From positions 1 to 31,118 of the IMG/VR virus record IMGVR_UViG_3300046007_003204: a stretch of DNA of 31,118 nucleotides. One strand, written 5' to 3'. The translations under genes were made by a program, and so were the position numbers. Shown here piece after piece: positions 1 to 22,148 of the stretch. The stretch is from a virus. Numbering within the stretch: position 1 is the stretch's first letter; each line of letters starts with the position of its first letter. Below the pieces are notes generated by a model. It worked only from the letters and a program-made list of their open reading frames with translations, had not been told where the DNA came from and searched no databases.

Positions 1-437
1 ATGCTAATCTATCAGTTATTACTGACGGTAAATCTGATTTCACTGGTGGGCTTCTTGTCCTCCCGGAGTATCGAACTGCCATTAATCTTAGACCAGGCGA
101 TCTTCTTCTTGTTGCTAATCACAGCATCATTCATGGTAATACTCCAATTGATGGACATCGTATTTCGGTTGTCTGTTACTTCAGAGAAGGTCTGATTGGA
201 ACTGGTAGTAAAGAGTATGAAGATGCTCGATATGAATTCATCGAAATGAGAAAAGCCGATCCTGTATTATGCGCCGGAAGAAACCAATTCAACGGTGTTC
301 TGGCTGGTTGGGAAAACGATCCTGAATGGTTCGAGTTCTGTAAGTCGAAAATCGGTGAAGAAGAGACTTACCGTATGCATCCGAATGCGAAACCCAAAGC
401 GAAGACGCTTTCATTAGAGGATATGTTTGATGACTGA
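1..437 (+). CDS. TET/JBP-family 2-oxoglutarate/Fe(II) dioxygenase, C-terminal part (cut by window start)
   Basis: Reading from base 3 gives 144 residues ending at the TGA at 435-437; the N-terminus lies outside the window. Residues 15-64 match the end of the TET/JBP double-stranded beta-helix: GGLLVLPEY, the turn LRPGDLLLV, the distal iron-binding His in HGNTP (residue 44) and the 2-oxoglutarate-binding Arg in HRISVVCY (residue 53), the same spacing as the HRISLVFY region of animal TETs. Family members oxidise the methyl group of 5-methylcytosine or thymine in DNA; phage versions start base hypermodification. The proximal HxD would be upstream and cannot be checked. The glycosyltransferase and helical transferase-like gene downstream fit this role. 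The substrate (5mC or T) cannot be told from this fragment. Confidence 0.75.
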   Translation, partial: ANLSVITDGKSDFTGGLLVLPEYRTAINLRPGDLLLVANHSIIHGNTPIDGHRISVVCYFREGLIGTGSKEYEDARYEFIEMRKADPVLCAGRNQFNGVLAGWENDPEWFEFCKSKIGEEETYRMHPNAKPKAKTLSLEDMFDD

Positions 438-693
438 GACTACAGATGAAAAGGCTCTTCGATTAGTCGGAGGAGTTCTAGATGGAATTGAGGATATTAT
501 TGCTCGATTTGATTGGGAAGGTGATCGTACAGACAAAGATAAGATGGTCCTGAAAATGGTCGCTGGTCTATCTTTGGCGGCAGTCATCACAAACATGGGT
601 TGGATGGAATTTTTCAAAACAATCATCGGTGCTATAAGGACTAGGAGGGAATTTCCCGACCTACTGATATTCAATGATGACTACGATGCTTGA
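430..693 (+). CDS. Hypothetical protein, 87 aa
   Basis: Begins at an ATG overlapping the end of the dioxygenase gene by eight bases, so it is probably translationally coupled. A TTG at 427 is in frame, but the ATG is preferred. The protein has an acidic N-terminal half and a hydrophobic segment around MVAGLSLAAVITNMGWMEFF that could be one membrane helix or a buried helix. I do not recognise the family. Its place inside the base-modification cluster suggests co-expression but not a function. Confidence 0.6.
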   Translation: MTETTDEKALRLVGGVLDGIEDIIARFDWEGDRTDKDKMVLKMVAGLSLAAVITNMGWMEFFKTIIGAIRTRREFPDLLIFNDDYDA

Positions 694-1174
694 ATTTTTC
701 CGTAAGATTTGCAATCGAGAGCCTGACGTCACGATTGGTTCAAAAGCCAATCCATATCTTCATCGTTGGTGGGTAATTCCTCGTAATCCCATCTTCAACA
801 TCTACCTGCATCATTTTCTGAGATCAGATGACGATAGAGCTTTGCACGACCATCCTTGGATCAACATGAGTCTTCTTCTTGAAGGAGAATATATAGAAGT
901 TACTCCGAAAGGAAGGTTCTGGCGAAGAAAAGGTCATTTCTATTTTAGAATGCCGAAAGCTCTGCATCGTGTAGAACTTCTTAAACTCTATCGCCAAGTC
1001 GGCCCTAATTGTGGAGACACTGTTGAGGAAGAACGGCCAGTATGGACACTATTTATCACAGGCCCACGAGTTCGTGAATGGGGTTTTGCTTGCCCGAAGG
1101 GTTGGGTATCTCATAAGATCTTTGGGTCTACCGATAAAGACGGTTCTCATGTAGTTGGCAAAGGATGCGATTGA
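674..1174 (+). CDS. Cupin-fold protein, 166 aa
   Basis: A single-domain cupin-like protein. The HDHPW motif (His58, His60) followed by a Gly-rich turn (LLLEGEY) and a later HRVEL (His98) are the metal-binding positions expected of a small beta-barrel, and the WTLFITGP strand completes it. Such HDHPW proteins recur in phages of proteobacteria without a known reaction. Several in-frame ATGs (674, 677, 686) are possible starts, and all overlap the preceding gene. Lying between a dioxygenase and a nucleotide-hydrolase-like gene, it may act on a sugar or nucleotide precursor of the modified base, but this is inference only. Confidence 0.6.
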   Translation: MMTTMLEFFRKICNREPDVTIGSKANPYLHRWWVIPRNPIFNIYLHHFLRSDDDRALHDHPWINMSLLLEGEYIEVTPKGRFWRRKGHFYFRMPKALHRVELLKLYRQVGPNCGDTVEEERPVWTLFITGPRVREWGFACPKGWVSHKIFGSTDKDGSHVVGKGCD

Positions 1175-1656
1175 TGAAATACGATGATCAAATGTCAGAT
1201 GTAATGTTCGACGATGAAGCATATCACAGAGGATCTGGCAAGAAAGCTCGAGAATATAAACAGCCTAACGTAGATTTTCTTCTGAGCCAATCTACTGAAG
1301 AAGTATATAATCCTGATACTGTCGTCCTTGCAAAAAAAGTAGTAGCGGACGGAGAAGGATTGAGGTATAACGAAGGCAAGCCTCGGTTCGATCTGATGCC
1401 TCCAGAAGCTCTCATTGCTCTGGCGGACCACTATCGTAAAGGATCTGAGAAGTATGCCGACCGCAATTGGGAACGTGGTATGGATTGGGGCAAGTGCTTC
1501 GCTTCTATGGAGCGTCACGCTTGGGCATGGGCTTCCGGTGAAGATTACGATGCAGAAACCGAATCCCATCATATGATCGCCGTAGCGTGGAATGCTCTTG
1601 CGCTCTATGTATATCATAAGCGAAATATCGGGAAGGATACACGTAGTTCGAAATGA
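1174..1656 (+). CDS. dATP/dGTP pyrophosphohydrolase-like protein (MazG-like all-alpha)
   Basis: Start ATG at 1174 shares its A with the preceding TGA (TGATG). AAAGG at 1160-1164 lies nine bases upstream, a better ribosome site than for the in-frame ATG at 1165. The C-terminal 90 residues carry the pattern RYNEGKPRFDLMPPEAL, then HYRKGSEKY, NWERGMDWG, RHAWAW, a GED.D segment and HHMIAVAWNALAL. I recognise this as the phage dATP/dGTP diphosphohydrolase-type domain (all-alpha NTP pyrophosphatase fold, with acidic and histidine metal ligands). The N-terminal 65 residues are acidic and unassigned. Removing canonical dNTPs would suit a phage with altered DNA; the exact substrate is unknown. Confidence 0.6.
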   Translation: MKYDDQMSDVMFDDEAYHRGSGKKAREYKQPNVDFLLSQSTEEVYNPDTVVLAKKVVADGEGLRYNEGKPRFDLMPPEALIALADHYRKGSEKYADRNWERGMDWGKCFASMERHAWAWASGEDYDAETESHHMIAVAWNALALYVYHKRNIGKDTRSSK

Positions 1657-1886
1657 TTACTCCAGAAGATTGGGAACGCGAAGGACCAGTCACGATCAGA
1701 TTGTTGAATGATCAATTGATAAAGAAATATGGTCATACAATATTCCTCGCGAATGAAAATGTTGGAAATGAGGGATATGCAAATGGAGTCGGACCGTATT
1801 TTTCCATTCCACTGCAAAAGATGTATACTGTCGATCACGGACCTAAATGGAGTAGTCCAGAAAGGGTAACTTGGTATGAAGATTGA
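1653..1886 (+). CDS. Hypothetical protein, 77 aa
   Basis: ATG overlaps the previous stop (ATGA), so translation is probably coupled. The sequence is soluble, Trp/Tyr-rich at the C-terminus, with NDQLIKKYGHTIFLANENVGNEG in the middle. No motif recognised. It lies in the hypermodification operon just before the helical transferase-like gene. Confidence 0.5.
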   Translation: MITPEDWEREGPVTIRLLNDQLIKKYGHTIFLANENVGNEGYANGVGPYFSIPLQKMYTVDHGPKWSSPERVTWYED

Positions 1887-1894
1887 GAGCCTCT

Positions 1895-3112
1895 ATGAGT
1901 CTTGAAGATTTCATAGAAAGAGAAAGACCCAAGGTAGATTGGAGGCTTCCAGAGCATCGGCTGGAAGCCTTTTCGCGTATTTGCCATGTTAGAATGATCG
2001 AGGGTGATCTCGATCATCATCACGTCTCTAACGTGATCTCTGATAGTATGAATCTAGACAACGACAGCAAAGTTCTTTACGCGCTGTTGTTCGGGCAGTC
2101 ATATCGCAATCATTGGGCTATGATTGCCCTTCAACTCTTTCCCGACCTGCTCACGTATGACTCCGGTAAATTTCAGGCGTGGCATGACGACAATTGGCAA
2201 AGACTCAAATTTGCGAAAGACACGAAATGGGGACTGCGTAAAGTTCCAGGATTCGTAGAATCTATTAAAAATCGTGTTGGTTCTGCTGGTCTATTCGAGC
2301 ACTTCGGCAACATAGCCAATTCCGGAACAACCGAACAAAATTACAATCGTCTCAACGAAGAACTGAAATCTCTGTTCGGGATCGGGCGCATGACGGCATG
2401 GCTTGCACAACAGACCCTCTATGAATTATTCGGCTGGGATATTGATCATTGGGATCAACAGCTCTACGATACGTCTGGGACCTGGTCGCAATTTGGTGCG
2501 CTGACTTACGTCTTCAATCGTCCAGACCTTGCTGCGAAGAAGGGTAAACTCGATAAGAGTGATATTCGAGAAATGGAAGATGCGACGCAAGTTCTCATGG
2601 AATATTGCAACGAACATATTCCATTCCATGTGGATATCTACAATGTTGAGTCGTGTGAATGTGAATTTCGTAAGACCGCAGCCAAAGATAATCCGAAAGA
2701 ATTCACGGGATGGACTAGCAACGAACTTGTCGAACAGTATTCGGAACTGAAAGCTCTTTGGAATGATTATGCGACTAAAATCGATTGGAATCCGTACATC
2801 ACAGGATTCATGACCAAAGGTAAGAATATCAGAAATTACGGTTGGTCCAAAGAATATTTCCGCGTATACAAAGATTACGGATACAATCTCAATACGCACT
2901 GGTGGTACAAAGATGAACCAGATGCTCATGAAGTTCTAGAACTTCCTAAGATTGTATCTCCTGGTGTAAAAGAGATGCTGATCGACTGGTCTCAAATTTC
3001 GGATCATACGAAGCTAGAAACCAAATACAATCCCGTCAACTATCTAAGATTCAAATCTAAAGATCATCCGGCATGGTCTAAAGAAGAAGTAGACTATTCG
3101 TACGCGCCATGA
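1895..3112 (+). CDS. Helical DNA-hypermodification enzyme, aGPT-PPlase/AADT-like
   Basis: 405 residues from the ATG at 1895 (an in-frame TTG at 1883 overlaps the previous stop). The middle resembles the all-helical, DNA-glycosylase-like family named alpha-glutamyl/putrescinyl-thymine pyrophosphorylase in comparative genomics, later tied to amino-acid:DNA transfer or base kinases in thymidine-hypermodified phages. Visible hallmarks are an HhH-like turn LFGIGRMTAWLAQQ (about 160-172), FGWDIDHWDQQLY (179-191) and the aromatic-rich LYALLFGQSYRNHW near residue 65. A Cys-bearing segment, VESCECEF, lies further on. The C-terminal 120 residues are rich in Trp and Tyr. The gene overlaps the glycosyltransferase start by ATGA. 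The family call is by eye; the reaction is inferred. Confidence 0.6.
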   Translation: MSLEDFIERERPKVDWRLPEHRLEAFSRICHVRMIEGDLDHHHVSNVISDSMNLDNDSKVLYALLFGQSYRNHWAMIALQLFPDLLTYDSGKFQAWHDDNWQRLKFAKDTKWGLRKVPGFVESIKNRVGSAGLFEHFGNIANSGTTEQNYNRLNEELKSLFGIGRMTAWLAQQTLYELFGWDIDHWDQQLYDTSGTWSQFGALTYVFNRPDLAAKKGKLDKSDIREMEDATQVLMEYCNEHIPFHVDIYNVESCECEFRKTAAKDNPKEFTGWTSNELVEQYSELKALWNDYATKIDWNPYITGFMTKGKNIRNYGWSKEYFRVYKDYGYNLNTHWWYKDEPDAHEVLELPKIVSPGVKEMLIDWSQISDHTKLETKYNPVNYLRFKSKDHPAWSKEEVDYSYAP

Positions 3113-4005
3113 AAATCGTCGTCAGATCATATGATAGACCGAAGCAGCTGTTCGAGAAAACATTCGCAGCTCTACAAATGCAAATGGATCTCTTGTTAGA
3201 TAGAGACCTCATTCTGGTATTGGCTAACAAAGATCAATACGAACTCTATCGTGATAATCTGAAAACCTTTCCGATCAGCGAAGTGATTTACGGTGGAGTT
3301 GGCGGACATAACGCAATCAATGCTGCGATAGATCATATTCCTGAAGGCGAACCGGTAGTCTTCATGGATGATGATATCTCCAACATTAAAATCTGGACTG
3401 ATATTAAAGATTCTGTTTCCAGAATTCCGGTTCTTGATCTAGGACGAACATTCGATTATATTTTTGATGAAATGGCGTCTCATAATCAGGGACAGATATT
3501 CCGGATTCATTCCGGAGAAAATTGGACTTTCAAGACGAACGCACCGTTCTTTGAATTTGCTCCAAAACAAATCGGTGGTATGTGGTGGGGTGGATTCAAT
3601 TCCGATCTGATGAAAACTGAACAATCCCATGAGGACGACAATATCAGAACATCTCGCTATCTTTGTCGAGACCGAGGTTGCTATTCTTTCAATTGGATTT
3701 CAGCATCGAGTTCTATTGGGCTCAGTCATGGCGGAATGCAATCGTCGTTGGATAGAGGAGGTGCTGGCCAGCGTAAAAACTCCACATTAGCCGCATGTCA
3801 GGCTGCTCTTGCAATTCCAGAAGTTGCGAAGATCTATCAATCAGAGCCAGTCTGGAAAGAATCCATGCAATTTTATACGCTCAAGATGAAAAACATTCGC
3901 GACCTCAGAAAAATTCTCGATTCATCAGAATCTCGATGGTCCTCTTTCTTTCAAAAATATCCTGATGAAAAACCGAATATTTCTTCACTGGAGCAATTTT
4001 TCTGA
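3109..4005 (+). CDS. Glycosyltransferase of TET-associated (TAGT) type
   Basis: A GT-A-like fold is suggested by an N-terminal strand with MKIVVRSYDRPKQL, a GGVGGHNAIN turn and the acidic metal-binding triad VVFMDDDI (residues 84-90), the DxD position that binds a nucleotide sugar. The region after it (FFEFAPKQIGGMWWGG, then SHEDDNIRTSRYLC) resembles the acceptor half of the glycosyltransferases encoded next to phage TET dioxygenases. Those enzymes attach sugars to 5-hydroxymethylcytosine in DNA. The start overlaps the previous gene by ATGA, and the gene ends the cluster just before a promoter. Sugar donor and acceptor base cannot be read from sequence. Confidence 0.6.
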   Translation: MKIVVRSYDRPKQLFEKTFAALQMQMDLLLDRDLILVLANKDQYELYRDNLKTFPISEVIYGGVGGHNAINAAIDHIPEGEPVVFMDDDISNIKIWTDIKDSVSRIPVLDLGRTFDYIFDEMASHNQGQIFRIHSGENWTFKTNAPFFEFAPKQIGGMWWGGFNSDLMKTEQSHEDDNIRTSRYLCRDRGCYSFNWISASSSIGLSHGGMQSSLDRGGAGQRKNSTLAACQAALAIPEVAKIYQSEPVWKESMQFYTLKMKNIRDLRKILDSSESRWSSFFQKYPDEKPNISSLEQFF

Positions 4006-6064: not shown

Positions 6065-6093
6065 TTTACTTTTAGATCAGACTAAGTTATACT
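6065..6093 (+). promoter_or_regulatory. Sigma70-like promoter for the inositol-synthase-like operon (P2)
   Basis: TTTACT (6065-6070), 17-base spacer, TATACT (6088-6093). It has the same -35 as the other early promoters here but lacks the ATTGGTTAG start region. The transcript would carry a leader of about 90 bases before the ATG at 6191. Confidence 0.65.
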
Positions 6094-6102
6094 ATAGAAC
6101 GA

Positions 6103-6142
6103 ATTCAGTCCTACTCCGCTTGAACCCGGCCAATGACTGAAT
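6103..6142 (+). promoter_or_regulatory. Inverted repeat in the mRNA leader of the inositol-synthase-like gene
   Basis: ATTCAGTC (6103-6110) and GACTGAAT (6135-6142) are perfect complements around a 24-base C/G-rich loop, starting almost at the predicted transcript 5' end. A second, alternative pairing of GAATT with AATTC (6146-6150) is possible. The element could stabilise the mRNA or be a regulatory fold; no known riboswitch is recognised. The ribosome site (ACGAGGAC) lies outside it. Confidence 0.45.
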
Positions 6143-6190: not shown

Positions 6191-7468
6191 ATGACTATCA
6201 ATGTAGCTATCGCAGGATTGGGATCCTGTGCAAGTGCTTTAATTCAAGGAATACAATGGTACAAAAGTAATCCTAATGAGACTGTGGGAATTTGTCAACC
6301 AGATATTGGAGGATATTCGGTTACAGATGTTAAATTTGTCGCGGCTTTCGATATCGATGCTAGAAAAGTTCGGAAGGTAATTCGCGACGCTCTATTCGAA
6401 CTCCCGAACTGTAATATGCGACATGTTGATTCGGTTGAATCCGTTCTAGCTCCTGGATGGGTTTATCGCGGCCCGACATTAGATGGCTTTCCCCGGCATC
6501 TGTTAAATTATCCCGAATCCGTTCGTATAGTAGAATCTTCTGCGCTTGCTCTAACAGCAGACCAATATATGGCGATTCTCAAAGACAATTCTGTTGACGT
6601 TCTATTGAATTATATGCCAGTTGGTTCGGATGAAGCTTCGAAATTTTATATTGAAAATGCCATTCGAGCTGGTGTTCATGTGATCAACTGTATGCCATCT
6701 TATATTTCAACCGATGAAGCGATGGTATTAGAACAAATGGCTATAGATCATGGTGTGACTATAGTTGGTTCTGATATGAGATCTTCTTGTGGAGCTTCCA
6801 GAATGTCGGAAGTCATCGAAGGTATGATGTTAGACGCTGGCCTACTTGTCACACAACATATTCAAACTAATATGGCAGCTGGATCATCGCAAGGTCAAGA
6901 GAATATTAGGACAGGCCGAACGGCGAATCAAGATTTTCTAGTCATGGCCGAGCAGGCAAGATTGAAAAATAAACATATCTCTAAAGAAAATGTTCTCGCA
7001 GGACAATCGGTAGTTCGCGGTGTATCGACCGCTGGGCAAACGAAATTCGCAGGGCCATCACTTACGGTAATTCAAAGGCCAGGCGGAACATATATCGGAA
7101 CTGACAACAAGATCGCAAATTTCGATATCATCGCGTATGGTTGGGCCGGAGCTCGTTACGAATTCACCGGCAGATTAAGTGTTCAAGATAGTCCAAATTC
7201 CGGAGCTATCGTTATAGACGCAATTCGATATTGTAAAGTGGCTGCTGAACTTGGTGTTGTCGGTTATCTTCGGGGAGCGTCGGCATACTCACAAAAGACT
7301 CCGCCAGTACAAATGAAGACTGAAGACGCTAAATTCGAATGTGACGCTCTAGCTCGAAGAATTCTGACACCAATGGTAGAAGCCCAATTGAAAATCAATA
7401 ATCCTTCCGCTAAAGACCTAGCATATACTTTTCAAGATTCCAAAACTGCATATGATTGTCAGGTTTAA
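6191..7468 (+). CDS. Myo-inositol-1-phosphate synthase-like enzyme
   Basis: 425 residues. A Rossmann NAD-binding start (VAIAGLGSCASALIQGI) is followed by family landmarks: NYMPVGSDEASKFY (140-153), VINCMPSY, IVGSDMRSSCGAS (191-203), NQDFLVM (246-252), KNKHISKENV (259-268) and YSQKTPPVQ (366-374). Family enzymes convert glucose-6-phosphate to inositol-1(3)-phosphate in a NAD-dependent oxidation, aldol closure and reduction. Two oddities are seen: the usual Lys of the GDDIKSQ segment is Arg here (GSDMRSS), and an insert GSSQGQENIRTGRT sits before NQDF. Other active-site lysines (SK at 264-265, QK before TPP) appear kept. The next gene encodes a phosphatase, suggesting the pair makes a free cyclitol. 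The product may differ from inositol. Confidence 0.8.
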   Translation: MTINVAIAGLGSCASALIQGIQWYKSNPNETVGICQPDIGGYSVTDVKFVAAFDIDARKVRKVIRDALFELPNCNMRHVDSVESVLAPGWVYRGPTLDGFPRHLLNYPESVRIVESSALALTADQYMAILKDNSVDVLLNYMPVGSDEASKFYIENAIRAGVHVINCMPSYISTDEAMVLEQMAIDHGVTIVGSDMRSSCGASRMSEVIEGMMLDAGLLVTQHIQTNMAAGSSQGQENIRTGRTANQDFLVMAEQARLKNKHISKENVLAGQSVVRGVSTAGQTKFAGPSLTVIQRPGGTYIGTDNKIANFDIIAYGWAGARYEFTGRLSVQDSPNSGAIVIDAIRYCKVAAELGVVGYLRGASAYSQKTPPVQMKTEDAKFECDALARRILTPMVEAQLKINNPSAKDLAYTFQDSKTAYDCQV

Positions 7469-7471
7469 GAA

Positions 7472-7930
7472 ATGACGGTAACAGTAACGCCAACTTGGCA
7501 ACCTTCAAGCTTCTTGGAAACTACGGAAGAAATATATTCCAAACGAATCAATACGTTTGATCTAGACGGAGTTATCTATCTTCCTCAGCCATACAGAGGA
7601 ATCAAACCGGAGATCAACGATATCATCGTGACCGGTCGGTCATTCGAGGAAGCTGATGAAACCTACGAGTTTCTAAGATCGCGCGGAATCTACAATGAAG
7701 TACGATTCAATCCTCTGCCATTCGATGAGAAGACTCGAGAATCTTCGGCGATGCATAAGGTCCGTGAAATTTGGGCTTTACAAGCTTCAGGGTATGAGGT
7801 ATTAATTCACTGGGAGGATGATCCTGTTCAGGCAGATATCATCCGCGCATATATGGGTGACCGTGTGCAGGTGATTCGCATCGAACACTCGGGTCTGATT
7901 AATTACGAAAACGTAAGGAGACTTCATTGA
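7472..7930 (+). CDS. HAD-superfamily phosphatase
   Basis: 152 residues with HAD landmarks: motif I in NTFDLDGVIYLP (Asp30 and Asp32), motif II in IIVTGRSFEE (Thr54), a Lys near residue 96 and an acidic motif in IHWEDDPVQ (115-117). These are the nucleophile, phosphate-binding and magnesium positions of small HAD phosphatases. The gene starts three bases after the inositol-synthase-like gene and so shares its mRNA. The simplest reading is dephosphorylation of the synthase product to a free cyclitol. A nucleotidase role is the main alternative. Confidence 0.7.
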   Translation: MTVTVTPTWQPSSFLETTEEIYSKRINTFDLDGVIYLPQPYRGIKPEINDIIVTGRSFEEADETYEFLRSRGIYNEVRFNPLPFDEKTRESSAMHKVREIWALQASGYEVLIHWEDDPVQADIIRAYMGDRVQVIRIEHSGLINYENVRRLH

Positions 7931-8259
7931 ACATTCTAGATACCGAAGAAGGTGATACATTCGATATTGCCGTCAAAACTGGCAAGAAAACGAATACCAC
8001 GATTTATCTAGAAGTTCAGAGCAAGAATATTCCAGATATTCATCTAGACTCGTTGAGTATTGAAATTCCGGTGCAGCTTGGAAAGTTTATAACTCCGATG
8101 AATTATCAAAAACGAGAGCTTCGAGTTGGTGATCAAACTCAGTATGGTGCAATTCTAGCGATTGAAGGCGATTATGCTTGGGTGAAACTACGAAATTCAG
8201 ATTATAGGGAGGCACCATGTTGCACTTACAGCCTAGATATATTGGAGAGGGTATCATGA
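7927..8259 (+). CDS. Hypothetical 110-aa protein, tandem paralogue A
   Basis: Starts at TTG (7927), overlapping the phosphatase stop; AAGGAG lies eight bases upstream and there is no nearer ATG. It has two visible parts: GDTFDIAVKTG near the N-terminus and a C-terminal block RVGDQTQYGAILAIEGDYAWVKLR, probably a small beta-barrel. Both parts recur in the next gene, and both proteins are 110 residues. Unlike its partner, it carries a Cys pair (APCCTY) near the end. Function unknown. Confidence 0.6.
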   Translation: MNILDTEEGDTFDIAVKTGKKTNTTIYLEVQSKNIPDIHLDSLSIEIPVQLGKFITPMNYQKRELRVGDQTQYGAILAIEGDYAWVKLRNSDYREAPCCTYSLDILERVS

Positions 8260-8588
8260 ATTACAAATTCAACCATGGTGATAAATTCGACGTTCCTATT
8301 ACAGTTGTATTGAATAATAGAGGAAAAATAGATTTGATGGTCGGAGATCCAGCAGAAAATATGAGGATGAGCGAATATTTTATGCTGGCGTATGACATGG
8401 CTCCCCTTCTTGATGCGTTTCAGAATCTTCCGATCAAAAACTATGTCCCAGCGCCCGCACCATTAAAGGTTGGTGACGAAACACATTCAGGCTTAATTAT
8501 CGCTATCTATAATGAGAAGGCTTGGGTTGTACAAAAGGAAACAGGGAAACCTCTCACTTTCAATCTAAGATCATTAACGAGGGTATAA
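8256..8588 (+). CDS. Hypothetical 110-aa protein, tandem paralogue B
   Basis: ATG at 8256 overlaps the previous stop (ATGA) and follows GGAGAGGG. An upstream in-frame ATG at 8217 lies well inside the preceding gene and has no better ribosome site. GDKFDVPITVV at the N-terminus and KVGDETHSGLIIAIYNEKAWVV at the C-terminus match the two blocks of the preceding protein, so the two probably arose by tandem duplication. Function unknown. Confidence 0.65.
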   Translation: MNYKFNHGDKFDVPITVVLNNRGKIDLMVGDPAENMRMSEYFMLAYDMAPLLDAFQNLPIKNYVPAPAPLKVGDETHSGLIIAIYNEKAWVVQKETGKPLTFNLRSLTRV

Positions 8589-8592
8589 ATTC

Positions 8593-9138
8593 ATGAAAAT
8601 CGTAGGACTTATTGGAGTTCCTGGAACGGGTAAGACGACGCTTACGCGCGCTTGGATGAAACAGCACGCATCCGATTGGCAACGTGCTGAACCACGTAAA
8701 CTCGTGACTTGTGAGTATTCGCCGTCACGAAACACTTATATCCTGGGAAAATACGACGAAGGTGAAGTCTTCGCTGGAACAGACAAGCTCTCGATGAGCG
8801 TCATGCCAGAAGCTAAGATCTTCCTGAAAGAATGTGATAAATCCACGAATATCTTCTTCGAAGGCGATCGGCTCGGATCAGCATCCTTCTTCGAATATAT
8901 CATGGATCTACCCAAGGTGGAACTGCATATTCTGAAACTTCAGGCAGATTCCAGAACACTCAGCATTCGTTATTCTGAGCGCGGATCTAATCAGTCAGAA
9001 CAATTTCTGTCTGGTCGAGAAACCAAGATTTCCAACATCTGCAATAATTTCAATCTCATGGATTGTATCGAAACCCTGTATCACGAAACTCCAGAAGATA
9101 CAGCAAAAGCTGTCGAATGGATTGAATCTAAATTCTGA
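8593..9138 (+). CDS. P-loop kinase, possibly a DNA-base kinase
   Basis: 181 residues. The Walker A motif GVPGTGKTT is at residues 8-16. The segments LGKYDEGEVFAGTDKLSMSV and FFEGDRLGSASFF resemble the substrate and Walker B regions of small P-loop kinases in phages with hypermodified thymine, where 5-hydroxymethyl-dU in DNA is phosphorylated before further decoration. The link is by memory of the family pattern, not alignment. The gene ends the inositol-synthase operon; a nucleotide or cyclitol kinase is an alternative. It is followed directly by an early promoter. Confidence 0.6.
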   Translation: MKIVGLIGVPGTGKTTLTRAWMKQHASDWQRAEPRKLVTCEYSPSRNTYILGKYDEGEVFAGTDKLSMSVMPEAKIFLKECDKSTNIFFEGDRLGSASFFEYIMDLPKVELHILKLQADSRTLSIRYSERGSNQSEQFLSGRETKISNICNNFNLMDCIETLYHETPEDTAKAVEWIESKF

Positions 9139-9381: not shown

Positions 9382-9996
9382 TCAGATCAGTTTGTATCGC
9401 TCGTCTCCGGTTCCAGATTCTTTGATCTGAGTTTCGGAGGCGACGATCATTCTTGGTTCGATGATTCGAATCTTGTTCGCATCGTATGCGATGTAGACGT
9501 TATGCTTCTGAGCAGTGATACCCATCGCTCCACCATTATATCGTAGAGCATCGTATCCCAATTTCTTGAGCTTCTCTCGAGCTTGAGCAGTTTTGTTCAT
9601 GCCTTGAGAAAGACCTTTGAAAACTTGATCTCCAGTCAGAACCATACGACCGCTTTCAAGTTCGTCGAGCACTTTATATTTGTCAGAACCTAATGATAGT
9701 AATCCTGCGCCGCGCGCAAACTCTTCTGATGATTTCTTATCGATGAACGCCATCAAGTCTTTTCCGCTGAATTTTTGATCAACATCAAACAGTTTCATGA
9801 TGTTCAGAACAACTTGATAGATCAGTTTGTCCCCACCAGATTTCTTTTGCATCGATGAGGCGTAGCCTTTTGCGATATCCAGATTGTCTGTGAAGTATGC
9901 AACTCCGCCGCCGTAGTAATCGTTCGCAATTCGTGCTTTCGACTGTTCAAATTTAACGAAGCGTTGATTCGTCCCGTGATATAAATTCAACTGCAT
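9382..9996 (-). CDS. ADP-ribosyltransferase-like protein
   Basis: 204 residues, alone on the minus strand among early genes. The N-terminus LYHGTNQRFVKFEQSKA and the segment YYGGGVAYFTDNLDIAKGYA (His7, Tyr34) match the first two positions of the H-Y-[EDQ] ADP-ribosyltransferase signature, in the style of the versions found in phage polyvalent proteins. The C-terminal strand NVYIAYDANKIRIIEP is where the family often carries a catalytic Glu; none is obvious here, so the third residue is uncertain. Phage ADP-ribosyltransferases such as T4 Alt modify host RNA polymerase and other proteins. The orientation, shared with virion genes, allows a late, packaged protein, but this is inference. Confidence 0.55.
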   Translation of the reverse strand: MQLNLYHGTNQRFVKFEQSKARIANDYYGGGVAYFTDNLDIAKGYASSMQKKSGGDKLIYQVVLNIMKLFDVDQKFSGKDLMAFIDKKSSEEFARGAGLLSLGSDKYKVLDELESGRMVLTGDQVFKGLSQGMNKTAQAREKLKKLGYDALRYNGGAMGITAQKHNVYIAYDANKIRIIEPRMIVASETQIKESGTGDERYKLI

Positions 9997-10059: not shown

Positions 10060-11028
10060 ATGCCTAGCGAAGTCATTCGTATGAAGTATGGATCACATTT
10101 GTATGGAACAAATGTCGAAACATCAGATCTAGATATCAAGGCAATTCATATTCCTGATCCTGCTGAAATCCTTCTAGGACGATCCCCAAAGTCTAAACAG
10201 ACTCCAAGCCTGTATTCAGAACCTGTCGATCCGGATTGTGATTTTGAATCTATGAGCCTGGCGCATTTTGGTAGGCTGCTTTCTGATCAGCAACCGATCG
10301 CGATTGAAATGCTGTTCGCACCTTCGTGGGCATTCATTCATTGGACTCACAAATGGGAAAGATTCCGTACTCGTCGGGATCTGTTTCTTTCTAAGAACGT
10401 CGGCAAATTCGTTTCGTATGCTCGCAGCCAAGCGACTAAATTTGTCGTGAAGGGTGACCGGATCAACGCAGTCTCAGAAGTTCTGAAAGATCTTAACCAG
10501 CGAAAAGCTGTATACGGCCATCTAGCTCCACTAGGAACCGTTTCAGCATATATCGTAGAACGAAATCCTCTGATTGAATGTGTCGACATTACGCTCGATA
10601 CTGGTAAAGTAATCCCACATCTTTCGGTATGCGGTCGTAAAGTTCCGTTCACCATTTCTATTGGGAACGCGATTGATGTCTATCAGAAGCTCATGGATCA
10701 ATATGGTAAGCGAACTCTCGAGGCTCAGACAAAAGAAGGTATCGACTGGAAGGGTATGATGCACGCTGTGCGACTTACTCAGGAATGTATCGAGCTTCTT
10801 CAGACGCGAGAAATCATATTCCCCAGACCCAATGCGGACTATCTTCTGAATATTCGTAAAGGTCTCGTAGATCAGTTCGAGATTATGGAAGAAATTGAAC
10901 TTGCGGTTGAGGAAATTGAACTCTATACAACGAGGACGACTCTTCCGGAGGTTCCGAACATTGATCTCATCGAGGCTTTGGTCATGGAAGAATACTACGA
11001 AGAGATCAAAGACTACATGGAATCCTAA
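10060..11028 (+). CDS. RlaP-type predicted nucleotidyltransferase
   Basis: 322 residues from the ATG at 10060, which has AGGAG at 10048-10052 with good spacing; the ATG at 10042 lacks a site. The polymerase-beta-type signature KYGSHLYGTNVETSDLDIKAI (GS at 11-12, catalytic Asp pair 24 and 26) and the downstream IEMLFAP and helical C-terminal half match the RNA-repair-associated nucleotidyltransferase family (RlaP). Members add nucleotides to RNA ends or act with RNA ligases in repair of cleaved tRNA. The next feature is the tmRNA gene, and tRNAs lie in the same region, so a role in repairing cleaved stable RNA is plausible. No RNA ligase is visible in the window. Confidence 0.65.
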   Translation: MPSEVIRMKYGSHLYGTNVETSDLDIKAIHIPDPAEILLGRSPKSKQTPSLYSEPVDPDCDFESMSLAHFGRLLSDQQPIAIEMLFAPSWAFIHWTHKWERFRTRRDLFLSKNVGKFVSYARSQATKFVVKGDRINAVSEVLKDLNQRKAVYGHLAPLGTVSAYIVERNPLIECVDITLDTGKVIPHLSVCGRKVPFTISIGNAIDVYQKLMDQYGKRTLEAQTKEGIDWKGMMHAVRLTQECIELLQTREIIFPRPNADYLLNIRKGLVDQFEIMEEIELAVEEIELYTTRTTLPEVPNIDLIEALVMEEYYEEIKDYMES

Positions 11029-11039
11029 TTATGTTCAAT

Positions 11040-11284
11040 GGTCGTAAAGACTACTACTGAAATCTGCAAACACTGGGGTTCGAATCCCCACAGCTCCACC
11101 AATTTCCGAACCATTTCGGGGCTGAACTGGTATCGACTTGTAGCGCATAGGTAGATGTTCGACTTCGGTGACTGAGCAGTCAAAGCGTTAAATGCTAACG
11201 ATAACAGCATGGAATTAGCTCTAGCAGCATAATTTCTGAGGTTCTGGGGACGACCTTATCATCCAAGAGGTCCCCAATTTTTTT
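11040..11284 (+). ncRNA. ssrA: Circularly permuted (two-piece) tmRNA
   Basis: The acceptor piece comes first: T-arm TGGGG-TTCGAAT-CCCCA (11074-11090), acceptor strand CAGCTCC, discriminator A and CCA (11091-11101). A 16-base spacer (11102-11117) follows, then the 5' half GGGGCTGAACTGGTATCGACT (11118 on). GGGGCTG pairs with CAGCTCC over seven pairs, including the third-position G-U that marks alanine identity. The tag reading frame at 11194-11232 encodes ANDNSMELALAA and a stop, a typical ssrA degradation tag. Part of CTACTACTG (11051-11059) can pair with GGTAG near 11150, as in helix P2. The 5' end of the precursor is approximate. Phage tmRNA would rescue ribosomes and tag proteins during infection. 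Confidence 0.9.
11245..11284 (+). terminator. Rho-independent terminator of the tmRNA gene
   Basis: TGGGGAC (11245-11251) pairs with GTCCCCA (11270-11276), with ACCTT/AAGAGGT partly extending the stem, followed by AT and seven Ts (11278-11284). The stem may also be the 3' hairpin of the tmRNA coding piece. Confidence 0.75.
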
Positions 11285-11306
11285 AGAATTGTAAGGATAC
11301 AATACA

Positions 11307-11528
11307 ATGAAATCGTTTCGGCAAATCCTGGATAAACCTACGTCGACTCCAGAGCAACTCGCAGTCAAACATAAGGTAAGTCTAGAAACTATCATGGCTG
11401 CGCTCCGCACCGGGATTAAAGTCGAAGCTGAACATACTTCCAATAAAGCAGTTGCTAGAGAGATTGCTTTAGATCATTTGGGTGAAGATCCGAAATACTA
11501 CGAGAAGTTGAAAAAGGCTGAAGGATGA
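11307..11528 (+). CDS. DUF5661-like protein, 73 aa
   Basis: A small helical protein with the pattern PEQLAVKHKVSLETIMAALRTGIKVEAEHT, then AREIALDHLGEDPKYYEKLKK. This pattern recurs in many phage and bacterial proteins of unknown function that I know as DUF5661. The N-terminal helix pair looks like a small helix-turn-helix, but no DNA-binding role is established. The end overlaps the nuclease start by ATGA. Confidence 0.65.
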   Translation: MKSFRQILDKPTSTPEQLAVKHKVSLETIMAALRTGIKVEAEHTSNKAVAREIALDHLGEDPKYYEKLKKAEG

Positions 11529-16982: not shown

Positions 16983-17057
16983 GCCAGTTAAGCATTTACG
17001 GTGATGCGCTTGCCTTGTAAGCATGAAAATCGGGTTCAAGTCCTGAATCTGGCACCA
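16983..17057 (+). tRNA. tRNA-Thr (anticodon TGT), CCA encoded
   Basis: Acceptor GCCAGTT with ATCTGGC (one T-T mismatch), D-arm GCAT/ATGC with GG in the loop, anticodon stem CTTGC/GCATG with loop CTTGTAA, T-arm TCGGG-TTCAAGT-CCTGA, discriminator A and encoded CCA. It reads ACA threonine codons. Confidence 0.8.
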
Positions 17058-17067
17058 ATTATTTCGC

Positions 17068-17145
17068 GGCCACGTATCCCAATCCGGTAGAGGAAGCGGT
17101 CTTAAAAATCGTTCAGTATGGGTTCGAGTCCCATCGTGGCTACCA
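17068..17145 (+). tRNA. tRNA with anticodon TAA (Leu) but short variable loop, CCA encoded
   Basis: Acceptor GGCCACG with CGTGGCT, weak D-arm (TCC..GGA), anticodon stem AGCGGT/ATCGTT with loop CTTAAAA, five-base variable loop TCAGT, T-arm ATGGG-TTCGAGT-CCCAT, discriminator A, CCA. The anticodon reads UUA leucine. Bacterial leucine tRNAs normally have a long variable arm, so its charging is uncertain. Confidence 0.7.
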
Positions 17146-22056: not shown

Positions 22057-22148
22057 GCACCTGTAGCTTAATGGTAGAGCGAGGAGCTTATACCTCCTGA
22101 TCAGCGGACGGCTGAACGATCTCGGTTCGACTCCGGGCAGGTGTACCA
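22057..22148 (+). tRNA. tRNA with anticodon TAT (Ile) and long variable arm, CCA encoded
   Basis: Acceptor GCACCTG with CAGGTGT, D-arm GCTT/GAGC, anticodon stem AGGAG/CTCCT with loop CTTATAC, T-arm CTCGG-TTCGACT-CCGGG, discriminator A, CCA. Between anticodon and T stems is a long arm TCAGC-GGACG-GCTGA flanked by GATC repeats. It reads AUA, but a long variable arm is not expected for isoleucine tRNA. Confidence 0.75.

Follow-up and report, generated by a model that had tools for sequence, protein, structure and literature searches.

Myo-inositol-phosphate-synthase-like genes in phage hypermodification cassettes as a predicted source of cyclitols for DNA bases

Hypermodification of DNA is a main defence of phages against restriction and CRISPR nucleases, and the decorations known so far are sugars, amino acids, polyamines and deazapurine side groups. 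Thymine hypermodification of the type described for phages PaMx11, M6 and ViI combines a 5-hydroxymethyldeoxyuridine (5-hmdU) kinase with a base transferase of the ADDT/PUGT type. To our knowledge, the nucleophiles used by the relatives of ADDT are amino acids or amines, and for PUGT, the 5-phosphomethyl-dU glycinyltransferase of a Pseudomonas phage, the PDB title names glycine. Other phages pair a TET/JBP dioxygenase with a TET-associated glycosyltransferase (TAGT), and a further group carries 7-deazaguanine genes; we know of no deazaguanine phage system with a cyclitol-forming gene. The myo-inositol-phosphate synthase gene of Menderavirus phages has been described as a bacteria-like acquisition (PMC9025141). 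We found no paper in the literature that ties such a phage gene to DNA modification, and an earlier passing mention is possible.

A synthase and phosphatase pair within a T4-like phage cassette

The window analysed here is the whole stretch of a virus record (31,118 nucleotides), assigned to a T4-like myophage by its homologues of gp20, gp21, gp22 and gp23. In the 5' to 3' direction it carries the end of a TET/JBP gene, a cupin, a pyrophosphohydrolase, ADDT, a TAGT-like gene, a myo-inositol-1-phosphate-synthase-like gene (MIPS), a HAD phosphatase and the kinase Ploopntkinase3 (Table 1), and the order of the cassette genes in the Caulobacter phage Cr30 is identical. The original prediction, made from the window alone, had placed a base-hypermodification cluster near the MIPS-HAD pair and a kinase in the same operon. 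Both hold, as the TET/JBP end, ADDT, the TAGT-like gene and the kinase surround the pair and the kinase scores above its Pfam cut-off. The promoter and structured leader that it had also assigned to the operon fared less well: the promoter match is at chance level, the hairpin is weak and the leader region has no match in Rfam.

Table 1. Features of the window discussed in the text
Feature	Position	Strand	Evidence
TET/JBP 2-oxoglutarate dioxygenase, C-terminal part, cut by the left window edge	3-437	+	home-made HMM of phage Tet_JBP proteins, E 6.5e-56
Cupin / cysteine-dioxygenase-like protein; also in Cr30	674-1174	+	PHROG 4786 E 4e-54; Cr30 synteny
dNTP pyrophosphohydrolase-like protein; also in Cr30	1165-1656	+	PHROG 801 E 9e-43
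ADDT-type base transferase	1883-3112	+	Pfam PF18724 E 2.4e-11; AlphaFold fold match
TAGT-like (TET-associated) glycosyltransferase	3109-4005	+	Pfam PF20691 E 1e-4, below cut-off
Sigma-70-like promoter match TTTACT-17-TATACT, not significant	6065-6093	+	10 sites found vs 8.6 expected in region
Possible leader hairpin, weak	6103-6142	+	z -2.1; 8/200 shuffles fold equally well or better
MIPS, myo-inositol-1-phosphate-synthase-like cyclitol-phosphate synthase	6191-7468	+	425 aa; Pfam, PHROG, PDB matches, invariant residues
Compact HAD phosphatase paired with MIPS	7472-7930	+	152 aa; PHROG, motifs, AlphaFold fold matches
Small protein, same gene run, no family match	7927-8259	+	
Small protein, similar by eye to the preceding gene, no family match	8217-8588	+	
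P-loop kinase (Ploopntkinase3), proposed 5-hydroxymethyl-base kinase	8593-9138	+	Pfam PF18751 E 8.8e-7, above cut-off
Polyvalent-protein-type ADP-ribosyltransferase	9382-9996	-	PF18760
Phage tmRNA gene, permuted alphaproteobacterial type	11009-11323	+	Rfam RF04321, 99 bits
tRNA genes Thr (tgt), Leu (taa), Ile (tat anticodon)	16983-17145 and 22057-22148		

The two tandem small proteins of the MIPS operon share by eye a VGDxTxxG motif, and the ADP-ribosyltransferase sits directly past the cassette on the opposite strand. The type of the tmRNA, whose tag is given by ARAGORN as ANDNSMELALAA, hints at an alphaproteobacterial host.

As predicted, the MIPS gene is a real, full-length open reading frame. 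It passes the Pfam cut-off for PF01658 marginally (27.5 bits against 27), matches PHROG 33138 (E 1e-99) and aligns over its full length with its best solved relative, Ino1 of M. tuberculosis (1gr0; sequence E 1e-50, profile E 8.5e-88). The second-best solved relative is Ari2 (6k96; sequence E 3e-27). Against TIGR03450, the equivalog model of the mycothiol enzyme Ino1, the protein scores 203.6 bits, under the cut-off of 638, and judged by its sequence it is a distant member of the family, not the mycothiol enzyme. All 273 phage homologues keep residues K261, K265, K307 and K369, and likewise N246, D248, D305 and D333, without variation; the four lysines align with counterparts in 1gr0, and we take them to correspond to the lysines with which yeast MIPS carries out catalysis. 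Relatives occur in 18 of 50,697 phage records, all of them Menderavirus phages or Cr30, while scans of viral contigs matched 129 stretches in one case and at least 508 in a second.

The HAD gene begins three bases past the MIPS stop codon, so that the predicted pairing of two real reading frames stands, and all four HAD motifs are present (D30xD32, T54-G-R56, K96 and D116-D117, kept in 79-82 of 82 relatives). The window protein has no match in Pfam, where its relatives give weak ones; in PHROG it matches family 415, polynucleotide kinase (E 5e-11). Its AlphaFold model (pLDDT 89) comes nearest in fold to Nir2/lipin, Pnkp1 and T4 Pnkp, with probabilities of 0.97-1.0 at weak E-values of about 0.003-0.04, and HAD phosphatases make up 12 of the top 14 fold matches (E 0.003 to 0.04). 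In 82 of the first 83 loci MIPS is followed downstream by the HAD gene, and the one remaining locus stops at a contig end.

A contig that is 99.99% identical to the window over 9.1 kb (L243) carries the complete TET/JBP gene (434-aa frame), and membership of this family in PF12851 is shown for the member in L075. The ADDT protein scores 44.2 bits against PF18724 (cut-off 26.2; Cr30 orthologue E 2.4e-54), and its AlphaFold model (pLDDT 91) has PUGT (8z2n) as the best PDB fold (probability 1.00, E 0.011), followed by the DNA glycosylase AGOG. Profiles of the HAD, ADDT, HMUDK-helical and SGNH-like families (the last two are introduced below) gave nothing meaningful against the sequences of solved structures, which leaves the likeness of ADDT to PUGT without sequence-level support. 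The TAGT-like gene adjoins ADDT in Cr30 and in contig L070 too. The kinase has a GxPGTGKT loop. Counting the TET gene as completed in L243, the window cassette unites a 5-hydroxymethyl source, a kinase and a transferase in one cluster.

Three mutually exclusive cassettes around MIPS

Genes neighbouring MIPS were identified with Pfam and traced with home-made HMMs. The 163 loci fetched with MIPS queries only form 51 clusters at 85% identity, 38 of which have flanks of 4 kb or more to the left and to the right; since the loci are the best 80 per scan, the frequencies describe the closer relatives, and many of the IMG/VR records are fragments. Within this sample of the best 80 loci per scan, each of the 38 full-flank clusters belongs to one, and only one, of three base-hypermodification cassettes that exclude each other. 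The neighbourhood search suggested along with the original prediction thus finds MIPS beside DNA-modification genes throughout, the reverse of the outcome that the prediction had listed as counting against it. The clusters that have no class assignment all have short flanks. An initial count of 46 of 46 included loci fetched by ADDT or HMUDK queries; sampling bias of this kind was rejected as an explanation, as the MIPS-fetched loci alone give the 38 of 38.

Class A, to which the window belongs, is the TET-ADDT-kinase cassette (9 clusters with ADDT, TET in 8 and the kinase in 8), and Ploopntkinase3 recurs in this class only. Class B contains an HMUDK-helical protein (20 clusters) together with a thymidylate-synthase-like (TS-like) hydroxymethylase in 14, and with TET and the kinase in none. 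Class C consists of 7-deazaguanine genes (9 clusters with QueC), accompanied by GCH1 and QueE and often by a TGT-like gene, and includes the Menderavirus phages; in most of these loci QueC lies directly 3' of HAD. QueC and GCH1 are confirmed by Pfam in several class C loci; TGT and QueE of phage Moby are assigned from the annotation of its record. The source of the 5-hydroxymethyl group is swapped along with the class: ADDT is accompanied by TET, the HMUDK-helical protein by the TS-like enzyme. HHalign gave a probability of 0.4% for a relation between ADDT and the HMUDK-helical protein, and their common descent was therefore rejected as the cause of the shared linkage. Class B cassettes (L022:12702-13682 and relatives) also encode a conserved SGNH-hydrolase-like protein of 330-370 aa with invariant GDSH and GNID blocks. 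This protein, class B cluster 3, was considered as a relative of the T4 beta-glucosyltransferase (E 0.04), a candidate dropped in view of these blocks and of weak GDSL/SGNH matches.

HAD accompanies 33 of the 38 full-flank clusters and is missing near 5, so it is either not strictly needed or replaceable. One of the five exceptions is a class C locus (L127:9691-10893) in which a HAD-like LNS2 segment is fused N-terminally to QueC in a single protein.

INDEPENDENCE and controls comprised the MIPS tree, reverse searches from ADDT and HMUDK, UvsX loci and cellular MIPS loci. The tree was built quickly, has a number of long branches and is weakly supported at several forks; on it the class label changes at least 15 times in the MIPS-fetched set and 23 times in the larger set; the well-supported branches alone give at least 7 (B), 6 (A) and 5 (C) changes. 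Common descent alone is therefore insufficient to account for the linkage, which arose repeatedly. In the reverse direction, 57 of 62 ADDT loci have MIPS no more than 6 kb away; of the five exceptions, three are truncated and the two genuine ones are near-identical contigs. MIPS likewise accompanies 60 of 64 HMUDK-helical loci. Two jumbo phage contigs (L264 and L265) contain TET/JBP and ADDT with no MIPS within 6 kb, and offer a natural comparison for the substrate of the transferase when the cyclitol gene is not near.

Loci chosen by a different gene give the complementary picture. Among 23 T4-like loci selected by UvsX, MIPS and the HMUDK-helical gene occur together in 4 and neither occurs in 19. 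The TS-like enzyme or a C5-methylase is found there without MIPS, which argues that MIPS tracks the transferase-type genes and not base modification generally. Of the 80 best MIPS loci from bacterial and archaeal genomes, 79 are free of HAD, ADDT, HMUDK, TET and the kinase, and the sole positive one has a phage layout. This locus (L396), binned as a Planctomycetaceae MAG, holds a complete class B cassette with UvsX and DnaB and is probably of phage origin and misbinned. QueC/QueE genes near MIPS in two Sphingomonas genomes were set aside as chance, lying on the opposite strand, 4-5 kb off and beside lipid-type genes.

A possible route from glucose-6-phosphate to a decorated base

We consider it highly probable that the product of MIPS-HAD feeds the modification of DNA bases, and with good confidence we read the pair as a cyclitol-supply module for this hypermodification, a role predicted from sequence. 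The decoration of DNA had been a guess in the original prediction; it gains support from the complete linkage, the three exclusive cassette types and the repeated switching between them. The product itself is likely to be myo-inositol or its phosphate.

From sequence, gene linkage and predicted structures we infer a product, a substrate of the phosphatase, a linkage to DNA and an order of steps for the window cassette. TET/JBP would act on a DNA pyrimidine, probably thymine, and hydroxylate its 5-methyl group, which yields 5hmU; the P-loop kinase would phosphorylate the 5-hydroxymethyl group and so activate it. Thymine is the likely substrate because no C5-cytosine methylase scored above cut-off in nine records, of which seven belong to class A (Cr30 and six others); Cr30 carries an enzyme of the thymidylate synthase family (E 4e-113). 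MIPS would convert glucose-6-phosphate to a cyclitol phosphate, most likely 1D-myo-inositol 3-phosphate, from which HAD would remove the phosphate, either on the free cyclitol phosphate or once it is on DNA. A hydroxyl of the cyclitol could then displace the leaving group through the ADDT-type transferase, yielding a cyclitol ether on the base that the TAGT-like glycosyltransferase may extend.

Since inositol lacks an anomeric carbon, it cannot be donated by an ordinary glycosyltransferase; displacement on an activated base in the manner of ADDT would avoid this problem. ViI-type enzymes use the hydroxyl of serine, a precedent for an oxygen nucleophile, and by analogy an ADDT-type enzyme could use a cyclitol hydroxyl. 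That ADDT forms the bond between cyclitol and base directly is a tentative proposal to which we give slightly less than even chances. Against the overall reading count the amino acids or amines that the known relatives of ADDT use as nucleophiles, and the fold match to PUGT, which has an E of about 0.01 and no backing at the sequence level. Moreover, the bond-forming proteins differ between classes, ADDT being unrelated to the HMUDK-helical protein by HHalign, so the same chemistry need not apply to every class. Because glucosyl-hmdU and an inositol ether of hmdU are isomers, mass alone cannot tell them apart.

Among the other readings, the one that keeps the phosphate deserves most attention, doubtful as we find it. 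Here the cyclitol would stay phosphorylated on DNA, as a phosphodiester or ester, and HAD would edit or mature the DNA-bound phosphate. The compact, capless HAD enzyme, whose nearest relatives are polynucleotide phosphatases and lipins that act on large substrates, is consistent with such a role, as are the MIPS genes with no HAD beside them and the CTP-transferase-like gene, a potential activator of cyclitol phosphate, near a few cassettes. Yet this gene accompanies only 2 of 69 clusters, and the position of HAD less than 150 nt from MIPS in 39 of the 57 clusters that carry it fits use of the MIPS product. It is less likely still that a different cyclitol, for instance a five-membered cyclitol phosphate, is made by the enzyme and afterwards attached to DNA. 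The rank of Ari2, a five-membered-cyclitol-phosphate synthase, as second-best solved relative points that way, and so does a 15-residue insert near the catalytic loop in the clade of the window; but Ino1 is far closer than Ari2, and most class A members and every class C member show the same linkage and lack the insert.

Readings in which DNA is not the target are harder to reconcile with the cassettes. We see only a small chance that the pair decorates something else, such as tRNA or a virion protein. QueC and TGT of class C do have tRNA-modifying relatives, and the Menderavirus genes have been interpreted as tRNA queuosine genes (PMC9025141); on the other hand, relatives of QueC and TGT modify phage DNA as well (PMC6884629), and TET/JBP, ADDT, the HMUDK-helical protein and the hydroxymethylase act on DNA bases or their precursors in the members described. 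A smaller chance yet falls to a service to host metabolism, through membrane lipid or osmolyte, with MIPS-HAD merely travelling alongside DNA-modification genes in a variable region. Metabolic gene clusters do occur in phages, and in some cellular loci MIPS stands by CDP-alcohol-phosphatidyltransferase-like genes. Against this stand the invariable cassette linkage with its many class changes, the almost constant presence of MIPS near ADDT and HMUDK genes in the reverse searches, and the outcome for CDP-alcohol phosphatidyltransferase, found in 0 of 12 phage records tested and in 14 of 14 control genomes; no inositol-lipid module was found, nor did any member of the inositol monophosphatase family score above cut-off in these 12 records. 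The lipid or osmolyte role was rejected on these two results, and the rerouting of host inositol or membrane lipids, which the original prediction had offered as alternatives, finds no support in them or in the cellular MIPS loci, with their lack of cassette genes.

Significance and comparison with described systems

Returning to cyclitol supply for DNA, the wider reading is that one interchangeable MIPS-HAD module feeds three unrelated base chemistries (TET-derived pyrimidines, hydroxymethylase-derived pyrimidines and 7-deazaguanine) and that cyclitol nucleobases are a widespread, unrecognised natural DNA modification; we hold this joint statement at somewhat better than even. Each part belongs to a known family, and it is the substituent predicted on DNA that is new. 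The pattern, which spans hundreds of related viral sequences, suggests that the DNA of these viruses bears a cyclic polyol, a decoration so far not described for DNA. If true, cyclitols would form a new class of DNA substituent which, having no anomeric carbon, should resist glycosidases and need a different attachment chemistry. Because inositol and hexose adducts are equal in mass, cyclitol bases could pass for glucosylated ones. The module is common, as the larger scan of viral contigs indicates. Some of its carriers are in culture, namely Cr30 of Caulobacter and Moby of Stenotrophomonas with its relatives, which makes the prediction testable. The plug-in pattern across three base chemistries would also provide a rule for predicting modification from sequence.

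Compared with its enzymatic relatives, the window MIPS shares full-length homology, catalytic lysines and the NAD-binding region with actinobacterial Ino1 (1gr0; TIGR03450), but falls under the equivalog cut-off, belongs to the clade with the insert and is paired with HAD and base-modification genes, whereas Ino1 is found with mycothiol or lipid genes. Ari2 is of the same superfamily with a weaker sequence match, and is an antibiotic-pathway enzyme with no known link to DNA. As for the modification systems, the QueC/QueE/GCH1/TGT-like genes of phage 7-deazaguanine modification recur in class C, there beside MIPS-HAD. The phage TET/JBP and TAGT systems share these two genes with the window cassette, to which ADDT, MIPS and HAD are added and in which TET/JBP probably acts on thymine and not on 5mC. 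The thymine hypermodification of PaMx11, M6 and ViI has the same combination of hydroxymethyl source, kinase and ADDT-type transferase; in the window, the MIPS-HAD pair lies between the transferase and the kinase.
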